This document shows, piece by piece, positions 7,033 through 13,795 of a DNA stretch of 33,871 bases; positions within the stretch are counted from its first letter, which is position 1; every line of letters starts with the position of its first letter. The notes beneath the pieces were generated by a model, which was not told the origin of the DNA, did no database searches, and was given only the letters and a program-made list of their open reading frames with translations. This stretch comes from Synechococcales cyanobacterium bin31.maxbin.ball.101. Lineage in GTDB: Bacteria; Cyanobacteriota; Cyanobacteriia; Leptolyngbyales; Leptolyngbyaceae. Both the position numbers and the translations under genes were made by a program. The stretch covers positions 1 to 33,871 of the forward strand of contig JAAFJU010000040.1 in the NCBI GenBank assembly GCA_013298165.1. The letters are read 5' to 3'.

Positions 7033-8109
7033 TTAATAGCCATCGATCGACCAATGGGGCGCATCTGCGGGGAGTTTGTAAACCTCATAGGTTTCGCCAA
7101 CAGCCCAGAGATCTTCGTTTTCCCAGCCTTCACCAGGACCGTCGATTTCTACAATGTCACCATTGCCATCTTTAACTTTCAACGTCTTGGTCCATTCAAT
7201 TTCGCAGTCGATCGCATAGCCAATGGTATGGTTCGATCGGAGTGCGGGTTTGAAGGCAATGTCGTAGGCTTCCACCATTTCTTTGGCCATTTTGACCGAT
7301 AGTTCAGGCGTATAGTGAACCCAGTCAATATTAACTCCGGGCATCGCAGGAACCGATTGAGGTGGCAAGCCTTCTGCCGCAACCCGATAAGAGTAATGCA
7401 TCAGGTGAACGCGCTCGGGAGGTCTCAGGGTGTTGTTGATCGTGACTTTTGCACCTGCGGCTTGGACCGCTTTGATAAAGGCTTGAGCTTTTTGCCGGAA
7501 GGGAGAGGCGAGGTCCTCAAGGGAAGCACTGGCACGCTTGAATTCGACCCATTCTTTCCCGCTAAGCCGGACCCGGAGTCGCCGGGAAAATTCTGTCAAA
7601 ATATCGAGACCGGGTTCAAAATCACTACCAATCTTAGTCTTGGTGGCGACGGAGAGTTGCTGAGCAAGGGCCGATCGGAACTTGGTATCGAGACGTTTGT
7701 AGACTTCCACCATGCCTCGGGTACTGTTAGCCCCGAAGGCTCCATCAGCTTGGAGAATGGGCTGGAGCTTGCCGATCGCCGTGAGCGATCGTTGCAAGTC
7801 TTTCACTTCTTCAGTGCCGTAGTTCAAGGCTTGTAACAGCCGCCCTGCGGTGAGATTGGCCACATAAAAAATAAAATTTTGTTGCAGGGCGACTTGATAG
7901 GTGGCGACATCTACAATGCCCGTTACGGTTAATTTATTTTGCGTCTGATAGGTGCGCGTTGCGGCATCCGTGGCCTTGCCAAAATCTCCATCGGGAGTGC
8001 CGACCGGAAATTTTTGATCCCGCAAAAACCGCTGCCAAGCCAGGGCTGTATCCCCTTTTGCTCCGATTTTGATGGGCGTTAGTCCCAAGACGCTTGCATT
8101 GAATGCCAT
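7033..8109 (-). CDS. M15-type peptidoglycan peptidase with N-terminal PG-binding domains
   Basis: A 358-residue protein. Residues about 9-75 form a peptidoglycan-binding_1 repeat (IGAKGDTALAWQRFL, PDGDFGKATDAATRTYQ). A second, more divergent one lies at about 95-140 (VKDLQRSLTAIG, ADGAFGANSTRGMVEVY). The C-terminal third resembles M15 metallopeptidases (VanY or phage endolysin type): SNHTIGYAID gives zinc ligands His294 and Asp301, and PHWS gives His352. The residue three before the last His, normally Glu, is Asp349. There is no signal peptide. ATG 8109 follows a strong GGAGTGGAG ribosome site. It is divergent from the GH25 lysozyme gene, with 154 bp between them. Confidence 0.75.
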   Translation of the reverse strand: MAFNASVLGLTPIKIGAKGDTALAWQRFLRDQKFPVGTPDGDFGKATDAATRTYQTQNKLTVTGIVDVATYQVALQQNFIFYVANLTAGRLLQALNYGTEEVKDLQRSLTAIGKLQPILQADGAFGANSTRGMVEVYKRLDTKFRSALAQQLSVATKTKIGSDFEPGLDILTEFSRRLRVRLSGKEWVEFKRASASLEDLASPFRQKAQAFIKAVQAAGAKVTINNTLRPPERVHLMHYSYRVAAEGLPPQSVPAMPGVNIDWVHYTPELSVKMAKEMVEAYDIAFKPALRSNHTIGYAIDCEIEWTKTLKVKDGNGDIVEIDGPGEGWENEDLWAVGETYEVYKLPADAPHWSIDGY

Positions 8110-8263: not shown

Positions 8264-9388
8264 ATGTTAAAGGGCATTGATGTTTCTGAATACCAAGGTG
8301 ACATCAACTGGAAAGCGGTGGCTGACAGTGGTGTGGTCTATTGTTTTGTGAAGGCAACGGAAGGGGTGGAAAGCCGAGATCCGATGTTTGCCAAAAACTG
8401 GGCAGGCATGAGAAGTGTGGGGATCATCCGCAGTGCCTACCACTTTTTTATTGCGAAGAAAGATCCAAAAGTCCAAGCGAATAATTTTTTAGGTTTGACC
8501 CGATCGCTCTGGGACACGAATGATCTCCCACCTGTTTTGGACTTAGAAAAAAGCTATGGATTGGGTGCGAATGAAGTGATTGATAAAGCGGGAATTTGGC
8601 TCGATACGGTGGAAGCTTCGATCGGACGTCGTCCTCTGCTCTATACCTTCCCCAACTTCTGGCACGAGACCCTGGGGAATTCCCCACGTCTCGGGGCCAA
8701 CTACCGCCTCTGGATCGCCCACTACGAAACCAACAATCCCTGGGTTCCCGGTGGCTGGAAGTCTTGGAGCTTCCATCAATACAGTGAGTCTGGGACGGTT
8801 CCAGGCATTTCTGGTCCCTGTGACATGAATAATTTCAATGGGGATTTGGATACATTGCAGTTTTTGCTCAACTCAAAAGCGCCACTGCGAGTGGGAAGTG
8901 CGGGCAAGATCGTCGCTGAACTCCAGACATTGCTCAATGCTAAGGGGGCCAATATTGGGATTGCTGACGGTAAGTTTGGCCCTCGCACGGGACAAGCGGT
9001 CGCGAACTTCCAGAAATCCGTCGGTCTACTCGCTGACGGCATCGTGGGCACCAAGACCTGGTCCGCCCTCCAGTCCAATACCAAACCTGCACCGCCTTCA
9101 GCTTCAACATTAGTCAACGTGTGCAAGAGCTACAAAGCGCTTCCTCATCAAGAAAAAGCGCTGACCTGGCTCAACCAAAGTATTCCTGCGTCTGCTATGA
9201 CGACCTTTGCCATTCAGTGGCGGCAAGTGACAGCCACCTCACCCATGGCGACCACACCGCTTCTCCTGAGCAATGTCTGCAAGAGCTATAAGGGCCTTGC
9301 CCACCAAGACAAAGCCCTCCAAGACCTGCAAAAACAGATCCCACCTGCAACCCTCGACCAATTTGTGAAGCTTTGGCGCAATGCTTAG
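8264..9388 (+). CDS. GH25 lysozyme with PG-binding domain and two novel C-terminal repeats
   Basis: A 374-residue muramidase. Residues 1-200 are a glycoside hydrolase family 25 domain: GIDVSEYQGDINW (Asp6), FVKATEG, PPVLDLE (Asp93, Glu95 as the catalytic pair) and HQYSESG. A peptidoglycan-binding_1 domain follows at about 207-270 (VGSAGKIVAELQTLL, ADGKFGPRTGQAVANFQ). After a Pro/Ser linker come two copies of a 38-residue module, at about 285-322 and 337-374, each with NVCKSYK, HQ-x-KAL, a short IP segment and a final QWR or LWR. I cannot assign this module to a family. There is no signal peptide, so export is unexplained. GGAGA precedes ATG 8264. It is divergent from the M15 peptidase gene. 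Confidence 0.85.
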   Translation: MLKGIDVSEYQGDINWKAVADSGVVYCFVKATEGVESRDPMFAKNWAGMRSVGIIRSAYHFFIAKKDPKVQANNFLGLTRSLWDTNDLPPVLDLEKSYGLGANEVIDKAGIWLDTVEASIGRRPLLYTFPNFWHETLGNSPRLGANYRLWIAHYETNNPWVPGGWKSWSFHQYSESGTVPGISGPCDMNNFNGDLDTLQFLLNSKAPLRVGSAGKIVAELQTLLNAKGANIGIADGKFGPRTGQAVANFQKSVGLLADGIVGTKTWSALQSNTKPAPPSASTLVNVCKSYKALPHQEKALTWLNQSIPASAMTTFAIQWRQVTATSPMATTPLLLSNVCKSYKGLAHQDKALQDLQKQIPPATLDQFVKLWRNA

Positions 9389-9492: not shown

Positions 9493-9547
9493 GGGTTCGA
9501 CTCCGCTCACCCTACAAGTCATTGAGGGGTGAGCGGAGTCGAACCCC
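9493..9547. repeat. REP-like inverted pair (TTCGACTCCGCTCA family), locus 2
   Basis: Arm GGGTTCGACTCCGCTCACCC (9493-9512) is followed 14 bases later by its exact 20-bp reverse complement (9527-9546). It lies between the convergent GH25 and tyrS genes. This is the most regular copy in the window and has the layout of a REPIN, two REP arms facing each other. Confidence 0.85.
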
Positions 9548-11016: not shown

Positions 11017-12906
11017 GTGTCCTCGAATACGTACCCCCGCCAAAAACCTGAAAACGAATCGACCGCGCAGTTCGTCGGCGGTGCGGGTAAAGTCGCAGGC
11101 GCAACCTTGATTGGGGTACTAATGTTGGGCAGTTCTGTGGTGGCTGGGGCGCTGGTGGGACTAGCGATTAGTTTTCAGAATTTGCCGGATGTGCGCATCT
11201 TACGCAACTACACCCCCAGCGAAACAAGTCACATTTATGACGTAAAGGGAAAGCATCTGACCAGTCTCCATGGGGAAGCCAACCGCGAAGTGGTTCCATT
11301 AGATGAGATTTCGCCCCACTTAAAACGATCGGTGATGGCGATCGAAGATAGCTATTTTTACTCGCACAAAGGGGTCAACGTCACTTCAACTGCCCGTGCG
11401 CTGCGAGCGAATTTCAACAAGGGCGAGACCAGTGAAGGCGGTTCGACCGTCACCATGCAATTAGTGAAAAACCTCTTCCTCACACCCGAGCGAGCGGTGA
11501 CGCGGAAAGTAGCGGAAGCAGTGCTGGCCCTGCGGGTGGAGCAGGTCTTTAAAAAGAATGAAATCCTGGAGCTATACCTCAATCAAATTTATTGGGGTCA
11601 TAACAACTACGGCGCAGAAACCGCCTCTCAGAGCTACTTTGGCAAGTCAGTGCGAGACTTGAACTTAGCCGAATCGGCCATGATGGCAGGCATCATTCAG
11701 GCTCCTGAGGAACTGACTCCGTTTTACAATATGAAGGCGGCGACGGAGCGTCAGCATGTGGTCTTGCAGCGGATGCGGGATCTGAAGTGGATTACACCTG
11801 AGGAAGAAAAGCAGGCCCGCAATTACAAAATTAAGTTGGGCAAAATCACATCTTTCCAGGGCAGTGAGATTCCCTATGTGACCGAGGCGATCGTTAAAGA
11901 GTTAACGAAAAAGTTCGGGCGGGATGCCATTCTGAAAGGCGGTTTACGGATTCAGAGTTCGATCGATACAAAAATGCAGCGCACCGCAGAAGACACGGTG
12001 AATCGCAGCTATCGCACAGGTGCAGACCAAATGGCATTGGTGGCCGTTGATCCTCGTACGCACTATGTCAAAGCCATGGTCGGCGGTTTGGATTACAAGA
12101 AAAGCCAATACAACCGCGCCACCCAAGCCCTCCGTCAGCCCGGTTCTGCATTCAAACCCTTTGTTTACTATGCCGCGTTTGCTTCAGGGAAGTATGAACC
12201 CGGTTCGACCATTGTGGATTCGCCTGTGGGCTATCCCGATGGTGATGAGATGTATTATCCCCAGAACTACGATCGGAGTTTTGCAGGCGCAATGAGTATG
12301 CGACGCGCTTTGGAGCAGTCTAGAAACATTCCTGCGGTTAAGCTGGGTCAGGAAGTGGGCTTGAATAAAGTGATTGAAATTTGTCGGAGTCTTGGGATTA
12401 AGAGTCCGATCGAGCCTGTGATTTCGTTGCCGTTGGGGGCGGTGGATGTGACGCCGCTGGAGATGGCGACGGCCTATGCGACGTTGGCGAATAATGGCTG
12501 GCATAGTGATCCCACGCTGATTATTCAGGCGACGGATAGTAAGGGTGGACTGGTGCTGGATAATCGTCCCAAACTTCGCTTAGTTTTGGATCCTTGGGCT
12601 GCGGCTGCGACCAATGAAATTATGCAAGGTGTGATTAATCAAGGAACGGCGACTTCGGCGCAGATTGGTCGTCCGGCGGCTGGGAAAACGGGTACGACAT
12701 CTTCTGAAAAGGATATTTGGTTTGTCGGGTCGGTGCCGCAGCTTTCGACGGCGGTGTGGGTCGGGAATGATGACAATACACCACTCGGATCGGGGGCGAC
12801 GGGAGGTACGGTCGTGGCTCCGATTTGGCGAGATTTTATGTCGCAAGCGGTGCGCGATTTGCCTGTGGAAAGTTTCCGTCCACCTTCGGACTTTCAGAAG
12901 CCTTAG
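11017..12906 (+). CDS. Class A penicillin-binding protein (PBP1A family)
   Basis: A 629-residue bifunctional peptidoglycan synthase. It has a membrane anchor at about 29-52. The GT51 transglycosylase domain has the catalytic Glu in MAIEDSYFYSHKGV and the motifs GGSTVTMQLVKNLFL and ELYLNQIYWG. The transpeptidase domain has SxxK in GSAFKPF, SxN as SRN in EQSRNIP, and the KTGTT box. It polymerises and cross-links glycan strands on the periplasmic side. The start is GTG 11017, preceded by AAGAGAGA. A repeat-rich spacer separates it from the D-Ala-D-Ala dipeptidase gene on the same strand. Confidence 0.95.
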   Translation: MSSNTYPRQKPENESTAQFVGGAGKVAGATLIGVLMLGSSVVAGALVGLAISFQNLPDVRILRNYTPSETSHIYDVKGKHLTSLHGEANREVVPLDEISPHLKRSVMAIEDSYFYSHKGVNVTSTARALRANFNKGETSEGGSTVTMQLVKNLFLTPERAVTRKVAEAVLALRVEQVFKKNEILELYLNQIYWGHNNYGAETASQSYFGKSVRDLNLAESAMMAGIIQAPEELTPFYNMKAATERQHVVLQRMRDLKWITPEEEKQARNYKIKLGKITSFQGSEIPYVTEAIVKELTKKFGRDAILKGGLRIQSSIDTKMQRTAEDTVNRSYRTGADQMALVAVDPRTHYVKAMVGGLDYKKSQYNRATQALRQPGSAFKPFVYYAAFASGKYEPGSTIVDSPVGYPDGDEMYYPQNYDRSFAGAMSMRRALEQSRNIPAVKLGQEVGLNKVIEICRSLGIKSPIEPVISLPLGAVDVTPLEMATAYATLANNGWHSDPTLIIQATDSKGGLVLDNRPKLRLVLDPWAAAATNEIMQGVINQGTATSAQIGRPAAGKTGTTSSEKDIWFVGSVPQLSTAVWVGNDDNTPLGSGATGGTVVAPIWRDFMSQAVRDLPVESFRPPSDFQKP

Positions 12907-12945
12907 TTGGAGAAACCGGGCTTTGCTGACGCAACGCTTCGCGAA

Positions 12946-13034
12946 CGACTCCGCTCACCCCTCGATCTTGGTAATAACACCGGGGTTCGACTCCGCTCAC
13001 CCCTCAACTGTTACGTGGGCTGAGCGGAGTCGTA
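12946..13034. repeat. REP-like cluster (TTCGACTCCGCTCA family), locus 3
   Basis: Three copies of the CGACTCCGCTCA core fall within 90 bp: two direct (12946-12961 and 12980-13003) and one inverted (13017-13034). They lie between the PBP gene and the dipeptidase gene. The frame of the dipeptidase stays open through this repeat and back into the PBP gene, which could mislead start prediction. Confidence 0.8.
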
Positions 13035-13093
13035 GTTTACGTCCGCAAGGACTAGCCCGAACCCAACCCGAGTTTAAATACAAGCCTTCATTA

Positions 13094-13795
13094 ATGAAAC
13101 CTTACCAACGAGTGCCGATCGTCCCCACCCATGAGCCGATCGTCCCAATCCCCACGCCCGAGTTTGATCTCACCACACCCCATCCCTACGCAAAACTCGG
13201 TGCGCCTTATGGCGATAAATCGCCGTTTTATGTGCGATCGGGCGTTCTAACCCAGCTTCGATCGGCTCAAGCTACCTTGCAACAGATCAAACCCGGTTGG
13301 CGGATTCAGATTTTTGATGCTTATCGTCCGGTGGCAGTGCAGCAGTTTATGGTGGATTACACATTGCAAGAGGTTTTGACCCAAAAAGGCTTGGAGAAAA
13401 CCGCCACTGAAGAAGAGCGATCGCAGGCACTACAAGAGGTTTACCAGTTTTGGGCAATGCCGAATTTAAATCCTCTCACGCCGCCACCCCACAGTACGGG
13501 AGCGGCGATCGATATTACGTTGGTGGACGAGTTCGGGGCTGCGATCGATATGGGTTCGGAGATTGATGAAATTTCACCCCGATCGTTTCCCGATCACTTT
13601 GTCGGCCTCGCTGAATTTGAGACGTTCGACCAAAACCGTCAGTTGTTGAAATTCGTGATGCAAAGTGCAGGATTTGCTCAGCACTACCATGAGTGGTGGC
13701 ATTTTTCCTGGGGCGATCAGCTCTGGGCTTGGATTTCGATGCGATCGGCGGCCCAACAAACGGAACTTGTGGCAAAGTATGGCCGTGTTGAATGA
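13094..13795 (+). CDS. D-alanyl-D-alanine dipeptidase (VanX/DdpX family, M15D)
   Basis: A 233-residue zinc dipeptidase that hydrolyses D-Ala-D-Ala. It shows the VanX signature: DAYRPVAVQQFMV supplies the conserved Arg, HSTGAAIDITL the His and Asp zinc ligands, and EWWHFSWG the catalytic Glu and third zinc-ligand His. There is no signal peptide, so a cytoplasmic role in recycling D-Ala is likely. The start is taken as ATG 13094 (MKPYQRVPIVP). The frame is open back to 12665, but that part overlaps the PBP gene and encodes REP sequence. It lies 60 bp before rpsO. In cyanobacteria a housekeeping recycling role is more likely than vancomycin resistance. Confidence 0.9.
   Translation: MKPYQRVPIVPTHEPIVPIPTPEFDLTTPHPYAKLGAPYGDKSPFYVRSGVLTQLRSAQATLQQIKPGWRIQIFDAYRPVAVQQFMVDYTLQEVLTQKGLEKTATEEERSQALQEVYQFWAMPNLNPLTPPPHSTGAAIDITLVDEFGAAIDMGSEIDEISPRSFPDHFVGLAEFETFDQNRQLLKFVMQSAGFAQHYHEWWHFSWGDQLWAWISMRSAAQQTELVAKYGRVE

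Follow-up and report, generated by a model that had tools for sequence, protein, structure and literature searches.

A Family of Predicted Three-Helix Modules, Probably Wall-Binding, in Peptidoglycan Hydrolases of Cyanobacteria and Their Phages

Introduction

One gene in the window (the whole stretch of 33,871 nucleotides of cyanobacterial DNA that was analysed) raises the question of what a repeated C-terminal tail is, and what it does, behind the catalytic and peptidoglycan-binding domains of a lysozyme. The answer favoured here, and considered highly probable, is that the repeat is an undescribed, mobile wall-binding module of cyanobacterial and cyanophage peptidoglycan hydrolases, for which we infer binding, the ligand, the contacts and the role of copy number.

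The lysozyme gene and its repeated tail

The gene, its parts and its divergent neighbour are as follows.

8264..9388, plus strand: whole gene, GH25 plus PG_binding_1 plus two module copies (374 aa, ATG start)
8276..8809, plus strand: GH25 muramidase domain, residues 5-182 (Pfam PF01183, E 2.6e-48)
8906..9070, plus strand: PG_binding_1 domain, residues 215-269 (Pfam PF01471, E 4.4e-15)
9071..9103, plus strand: Pro/Ser/Ala-rich linker, residues 270-280 (from sequence; pLDDT of the full-length model below 50 up to residue 280)
9104..9229, plus strand: module copy 1, residues 281-322 (predicted helices 282-289, 294-306, 309-320)
9230..9259, plus strand: inter-module linker, residues 323-332, predicted ordered (pLDDT 86 and 89 for blocks 321-330 and 331-340)
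9260..9385, plus strand: module copy 2, residues 333-374 (predicted helices 335-341, 346-357, 361-372)
7033..8109, minus strand: divergent, module-free neighbour with PG_binding_1 stretches (Pfam) and an M15/VanY-like C-terminus (by eye)

The two Pfam matches bear out the preliminary description, which had placed a GH25 lysozyme and a PG-binding domain ahead of the tail. The PF01183 match scores 165.1 bits, against a cut-off of 27, and covers profile positions 1-180 of 180. Inspection of the sequence finds LDLE at residues 92-95, a D-x-E motif that we take to be catalytic. Judged by its sequence, the catalytic domain of ORF 8264-9388 is an ordinary GH25 domain with predicted muramidase activity; in a structural comparison with 4krt, which uses a low-confidence part of the model, it gives a VIA Z of 9.0 and an rmsd of 4.2 over 163 residues. 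The reading frame is open for just 16 codons 5' of the ATG, so that a signal peptide has no room. Past residue 276 of the 374-aa protein, no Pfam family scores over its cut-off.

The two C-terminal copies said to follow the PG-binding domain are real: they are identical at 20 of 42 residues without gaps, and their BLOSUM62 local score of 101 lies far above that of 5,000 shuffles of copy 2 (mean 19.4, maximum 49). The motifs NVCKSYK, HQ-x-KAL and QWR/LWR are present as claimed. The proposed length of 38 residues describes the strict core; counting the conserved residues that lead into it brings the module to about 42, and the copies are spaced 52 residues from start to start. At the DNA level 64 of 126 bases match and the same codon is used at 8 of the 20 conserved residues, drift which indicates that the duplication is not recent; a DNA repeat search recovers a 48-nt part at 77% identity with a spacing of 156 nt. 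A search for a second credible module copy in the gene's own genome found none (next best E 0.08); a TPR protein there that was caught by the repeat model (L005) was dropped as a false positive.

The divergent gene at 7033-8109 is kept beside the GH25 gene in two related loci (L038 and L039; 82-83% identity), and Pfam names no M15/VanY domain in its C-terminus. A dispersed repeat with the core GTTCGACTCCGCTCACCC lies at window positions 9493-9546, just downstream of the GH25 gene, where it forms a palindrome with 25-nt arms that are 92% complementary, and again at 12943-13002, where the open frame 12665-13795 crosses it. (At up to 1 mismatch the core occurs at 39 + 39 places in the own genome; its reversed control occurs at 0.)

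A repeat missing from the libraries searched

The preliminary description could match the tail to no known wall-binding repeat and named a profile match of the copies to a known domain family as the finding that would refute it. Such a match was sought in Pfam, NCBIfam, PHROGs and the PDB, and no credible one was found; two whole-endolysin PHROGs, discussed in the last section, overlap some copies. When 43 units were scanned singly, the best E value for each library (Pfam-A 0.0032, PHROGs 0.014, NCBIfam 0.05) fell among scattered unrelated names, and the best E of the module profile against PDB sequences was 0.69. The weak Pfam names CC_STIL, zf-CCCH_8 and HolB_lid were rejected as weak and mutually inconsistent, as was Bcr-Abl_Oligo, which appeared in one carrier at E 1.6e-4, below its cut-off. 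In the titles and abstract openings of the open-access papers searched, no description of the module was found. The repeat is a family missing from the protein-family libraries searched, with no credible match in any of these four collections.

Structure prediction, which had been proposed as a check, yields a tandem of three-helix bundles. The full-length AlphaFold model is poor except in the tail (pLDDT 81-92 for blocks 281-370), and a model of the tandem by itself reaches a pLDDT of 89.5 and a pTM of 0.80, with helices at 8-15, 20-32 and 35-46 and at 61-67, 72-83 and 87-98. Each copy is predicted to be a small three-helix bundle. Foldseek found no match for the tandem model in the PDB or the viral library at E 0.001 or better, and VIA found no meaningful match (Z at most 4.1); a structure search with the full-length model retrieved solely GH25 and other barrels.

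Distribution in cyanobacteria and their phages

Of 386 genomes of the window's phylum, a single-sequence search finds relatives in 28 and a profile of the 43 units finds the module in 39, about a tenth; both counts include the own genome, and the latter includes one genome (G196) whose match, 17 residues in a 69-aa frame, is discounted. All four loci matched in genome_contigs carry cyanobacterial titles (close relatives only), and the plasmid collection gave matches in Tolypothrix and Microchaete plasmids (one Rhizobium plasmid match, at E 0.5, was taken as chance).

Every isolate phage record matched is a cyanophage: 2 of 2, 14 of 14 with a composed consensus query, 17 of 17 with a phage-type unit and 21 of 21 with a long-type unit. 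(It should be noted that the four queries overlap in phages and that some rows are weak; with the phage-type and long-type queries several reach E values of up to 0.8, mostly in annotated endolysins or lysozymes.) In the same collection, a CW_7 query matched 178 records, and phages of Streptococcus, Streptomyces, Microbacterium and Arthrobacter account for at least 151. The window sequence gave 7 pattern matches in viral_contigs, of which 0 were confirmed. Module-only queries of IMG/VR, from scans that gave the best 80 of 112 and the best 80 of 87 relatives, led to 222 fetched loci; 221 have a module ORF, with 181 distinct ORF sequences, in a set that holds at least one contig twice and three loci that, judging from length and identity, look like deposits of P60, S-B28 and S-CBS1. 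The rate of 221 in 222 is largely a consequence of fetching by module; the partner domains described below are not. Host assignment of these contigs rests on two flank comparisons, in which 50 of 58 and 63 of 69 records bear cyanophage names, no record covering more than 13% of the query. The host marker psbA was found in 0 of 50 viral contigs (50 out of 86). A possible confinement to cyanobacteria is suggested by the searches of phages, plasmids and close relatives; the profile search covered the window's phylum. Within the collections searched, the module is widespread in cyanobacteria and their phages.

One family with two subtypes

The module consensus is roughly I-x-L-x-D-V-x-K-Y-Y-x-G-L-P-H-Q-x-x-A-L-x-W-L-Q-x-Q-I-x-x-x-x-L-x-E-F-A-x-x-W-R. 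Cyanobacterial and phage short-type alignments match each other in hhalign over 42 columns with a probability of 99.5 and an E of 4.1e-23, and their profile score of 91.7 compares with at most 15.5 in 100 column shuffles. The host and phage copies of the module are homologous. A short subtype of about 42 residues can be told from a long one of about 47, in which the loop before the last helix is enlarged; the longer model scores best in 110 of the 221 viral ORFs. The long-type alignments are small, built from 9 distinct viral and 6 cyanobacterial units; with each other and with either short set they match at probabilities of 92.7-99.2.

Three residues stand out in the short-type units, 71 of them viral and 107 cyanobacterial: Gln16 (100% of viral, 89% of cyanobacterial units), Phe35 (100% and 93%) and Arg40 (100% and 75%), the last behind an aromatic position 39. 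Among the distinct viral regions, HQ occurs in all 57 of the long type and in 72 of the 75 of the short type, and the terminal Arg that ends helix 3 in all 75 short-type and none of the 57 long-type regions. Because this Arg is absent from the long type and present in only 75% of the cyanobacterial units, it is not a universal contact, and Gln is the general feature. Conservation runs against a simple Gln plus Arg site for the whole family.

Partner domains in cyanobacterial carriers

The domains joined to the module were tallied in 60 distinct cyanobacterial proteins, which are not mutually independent. (These are 64 ORFs, identical sequences counted once, less the fragments L026 1-507, L062 and L083, which duplicate other entries, and less L099, a TPR protein dropped as a false positive of the repeat model; L093-L096 lie outside the 64-ORF list, and L093 and L095 were inspected by eye.) Pfam finds PG_binding_1 in 46 of the 60, GH25 in 21, C39_2 in 13, GH19 in 7 and Trypsin_2 in 3, with Amidase_2 in 2 and Amidase_3, M15_3 and VanY in 1 each. 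By seed searches of each protein, 39 have a hydrolase-type domain (GH25, C39-like, GH19, amidase or M15, with L090 included for its Pfam VanY), 15 have PG_binding_1 only and 6 have neither. From 1 to 5 module copies are present per protein, and their place varies: GH25 proteins have them at the C-terminus, whereas Amidase_2 proteins have them between PG_binding_1 domains. In two genomes, of about 2.6 Mb and 2.8 Mb, an ORF looks by eye like a phage-type lysozyme followed by a single module and a C39-like peptidase.

The six carriers with neither domain comprise three proteins with Trypsin_2 and Pilin_GH and three without a seeded domain (L024, L028, L091). The former (L012, L013 and L080) have a hydrophobic N-terminus and two module copies; they are probably exported and apparently non-muralytic. 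Within L028, positions 1378-1974 encode a protein of 199 residues that has two divergent modules and in which no partner domain was recognised. Six cyanobacterial genomes (L084-L089) have pairs of neighbouring genes, each starting with a long-type module and a C39-like peptidase, with a GH19-like end added to one gene of the two, a layout like that of cyanophage endolysins.

The muralytic carriers have no recognisable signal peptide, as judged by a crude hydrophobicity window on stop-to-stop frames. This test flagged 1 of 76 viral ORFs and 5 cyanobacterial ones: the three trypsin proteins, and two in which the stretch lies at the likely start codon or ahead of it.

Partner domains in phage endolysins

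The endolysin of P60 starts with one module copy, and elsewhere in phages the module is N-terminal or lies between GH73 and C39, or between YkuD and a GH19-like domain. S-EIV1 and S-CBS1 have GH73 and then C39, S-SRP01 has GH73 alone, S-CRES1 has the order GH73-module-C39, and in B23 YkuD precedes the module and a GH19-like domain lies behind it. The GH19-like partners give weak Pfam GH19 matches in S-B28 and B23, below the cut-off, and the carriers in P60, S-B28, KBS-S-2A and B23 match PHROG endolysin and chitinase families.

In 77 viral proteins (76 plus S-CBS1, L075, added by hand), Pfam finds Glucosaminidase in 47, C39_2 in 31, M15_3 in 28, Phage_lysozyme in 9 and GH19 and YkuD in 1 each. 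A seeded hydrolase domain is present in 216 of the 221 viral module ORFs, and the remaining 5 do not exceed 120 aa. The domains are GH73 with C39 in 91, GH73 with M15 in 67, GH19-like in 30, C39 in 18, GH73 in 8 and M15 in 2 (this tally has no seed for Phage_lysozyme). Each of the 221 has one module copy.

What the module may do

Taken together, these findings show the module fused to unrelated wall-cutting domains at varying positions. The loci were retrieved by searching for the module and not for hydrolases, and most of the partner domains still prove to be ones that bind peptidoglycan or act on it, which supports wall binding; we infer that role because of the partner domains, the free position and the distribution of the module. 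The suggestion of a possible new wall-binding module, made from the window alone, gains support from its attachment to many unrelated cyanobacterial and cyanophage peptidoglycan hydrolases. The module is probably how these enzymes hold onto the cyanobacterial wall. It would tether the catalytic domain joined to it to the cyanobacterial sacculus, and in the window gene the tethered GH25 muramidase would then cut glycan strands. Two copies may raise avidity; the phage endolysins are seen with one. The likeliest ligand contact would be the near-invariant Gln that opens helix 2, assisted in the short subtype by the aromatic-Arg pair that ends helix 3, although both could be structural instead of contacts.

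Several observations count against wall binding: 21 of the 60 cyanobacterial carriers have no recognised hydrolase domain, the Arg is not a universal contact, the module is present in about a tenth of the sampled genomes (39 of 386), and the muralytic carriers have no recognisable signal peptide by the crude test. The last of these would also fit a module for protein-protein docking, or for dimerisation, that takes hydrolases to a partner (a holin, the export apparatus or the divisome) and not to the wall, since such a partner might serve export; the repeat is helical, moreover, and is found in host and phage enzymes alike. Single copies at either end or in the middle, beside unrelated catalytic domains in different phages, and the frequent union with PG_binding_1 in cyanobacteria (46 of 60) make docking improbable.

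A ligand-free structural spacer or autoinhibitory tail would agree with a module that is often terminal, flanked by linkers, and present in 1 to 5 copies in cyanobacterial proteins as against 1 in all 221 viral ORFs; however, the polar Gln16 is kept in host and phage copies, the prediction is compact and ordered, and separate Pro-rich linkers already space the domains, all of which leaves this reading very unlikely. Nor is the tail likely to belong, as a divergent member that escapes sequence search, to one of the known wall-binding families (CW_7, PG_binding_1, SLH or LysM), even though it has the size and predicted three-helix arrangement of CW_7 and is placed behind GH25 as in Cpl-7: none of these four families is named by Pfam for any of the 43 units at E up to 1, an hhalign comparison with 12 CW_7 units gives a probability of 0.4 and a score of 8.9, under the best of 100 column shuffles (12-15), and the Foldseek search of the tandem described above gave no PDB match.

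The preferred reading, a wall-binding module, can be carried one step further. Cyanobacterial peptidoglycan has polysaccharide linked to it, and the module may, as a tentative and somewhat doubtful extension, recognise a cyanobacteria-specific wall feature such as this polysaccharide, serving as a dedicated wall key that has been shared and exchanged by host and phage enzymes. (A search of open-access papers on peptidoglycan-linked polysaccharide as the possible ligand found nothing.) If so, the signal-less carriers with a module and C39 (with or without GH19), and those with lysozyme, module and C39, would be domesticated cyanophage endolysins. A module shared by unrelated endolysins and host enzymes offers a testable answer to how the cyanobacterial wall is found. 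Several of the cyanophage endolysins described here have annotations that call them hypothetical proteins or name just the catalytic part; a module profile could re-annotate many proteins, and the module itself is a candidate probe for labelling cyanobacterial sacculi.

Comparison with known systems

The window gene shares its catalytic domain with GH25 lysozymes in general, and the module tail lies outside that domain. Like the module, PG_binding_1 (PF01471) is an accessory helical domain of wall hydrolases, and it occurs in the same proteins in 46 of 60 cases; it is, however, a separate domain that adjoins the module, for residues 215-269 of the window protein do match PF01471 whereas 0 of the 43 module units do so at E up to 1. 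For GH19 endolysins, one paper gives LysM and PG_binding_1 as the only domains found with at least ten (PMC8547705). The profiles phrog_10051 and phrog_28234 reach the module region in some cyanophage endolysins, covering residues 4-59 in KBS-S-2A (E 1e-6) and 1-53 in S-CBS1 (E 3.6e-5), but these are whole-endolysin families and are not retrieved by single module units.

The closest parallel is with CW_7 (PF08230). Cpl-7 is a GH25 enzyme, with CW_7 repeats behind its GH25 domain. The module resembles CW_7 in size, in its predicted three-helix arrangement, in occurring in tandem and in this placement; a three-helix bundle of about 40 residues, in tandem, is what the model predicts here (pLDDT 89.5). 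According to a published study, the CW_7 units are three-helix bundles, 37-43 residues long and repeated in tandem, which recognise a muropeptide; a conserved Arg and Gln are implicated there by docking and by mutants (PMC5705596). The W-G-N / A-G-Y-D / V-Q pattern of CW_7 is missing from the module, and 0 of 43 units match PF08230 at E up to 1 in a Pfam scan that did match two CW_7 sequences as a positive control. CW_7 entries are not among the Foldseek and VIA rows, an absence that does not exclude a shared topology. The phage matches of CW_7 are mainly in phages of Gram-positive hosts, whereas those of the module are in cyanophages. With no homology detectable between their sequences, CW_7 is the nearest analogue of the module.
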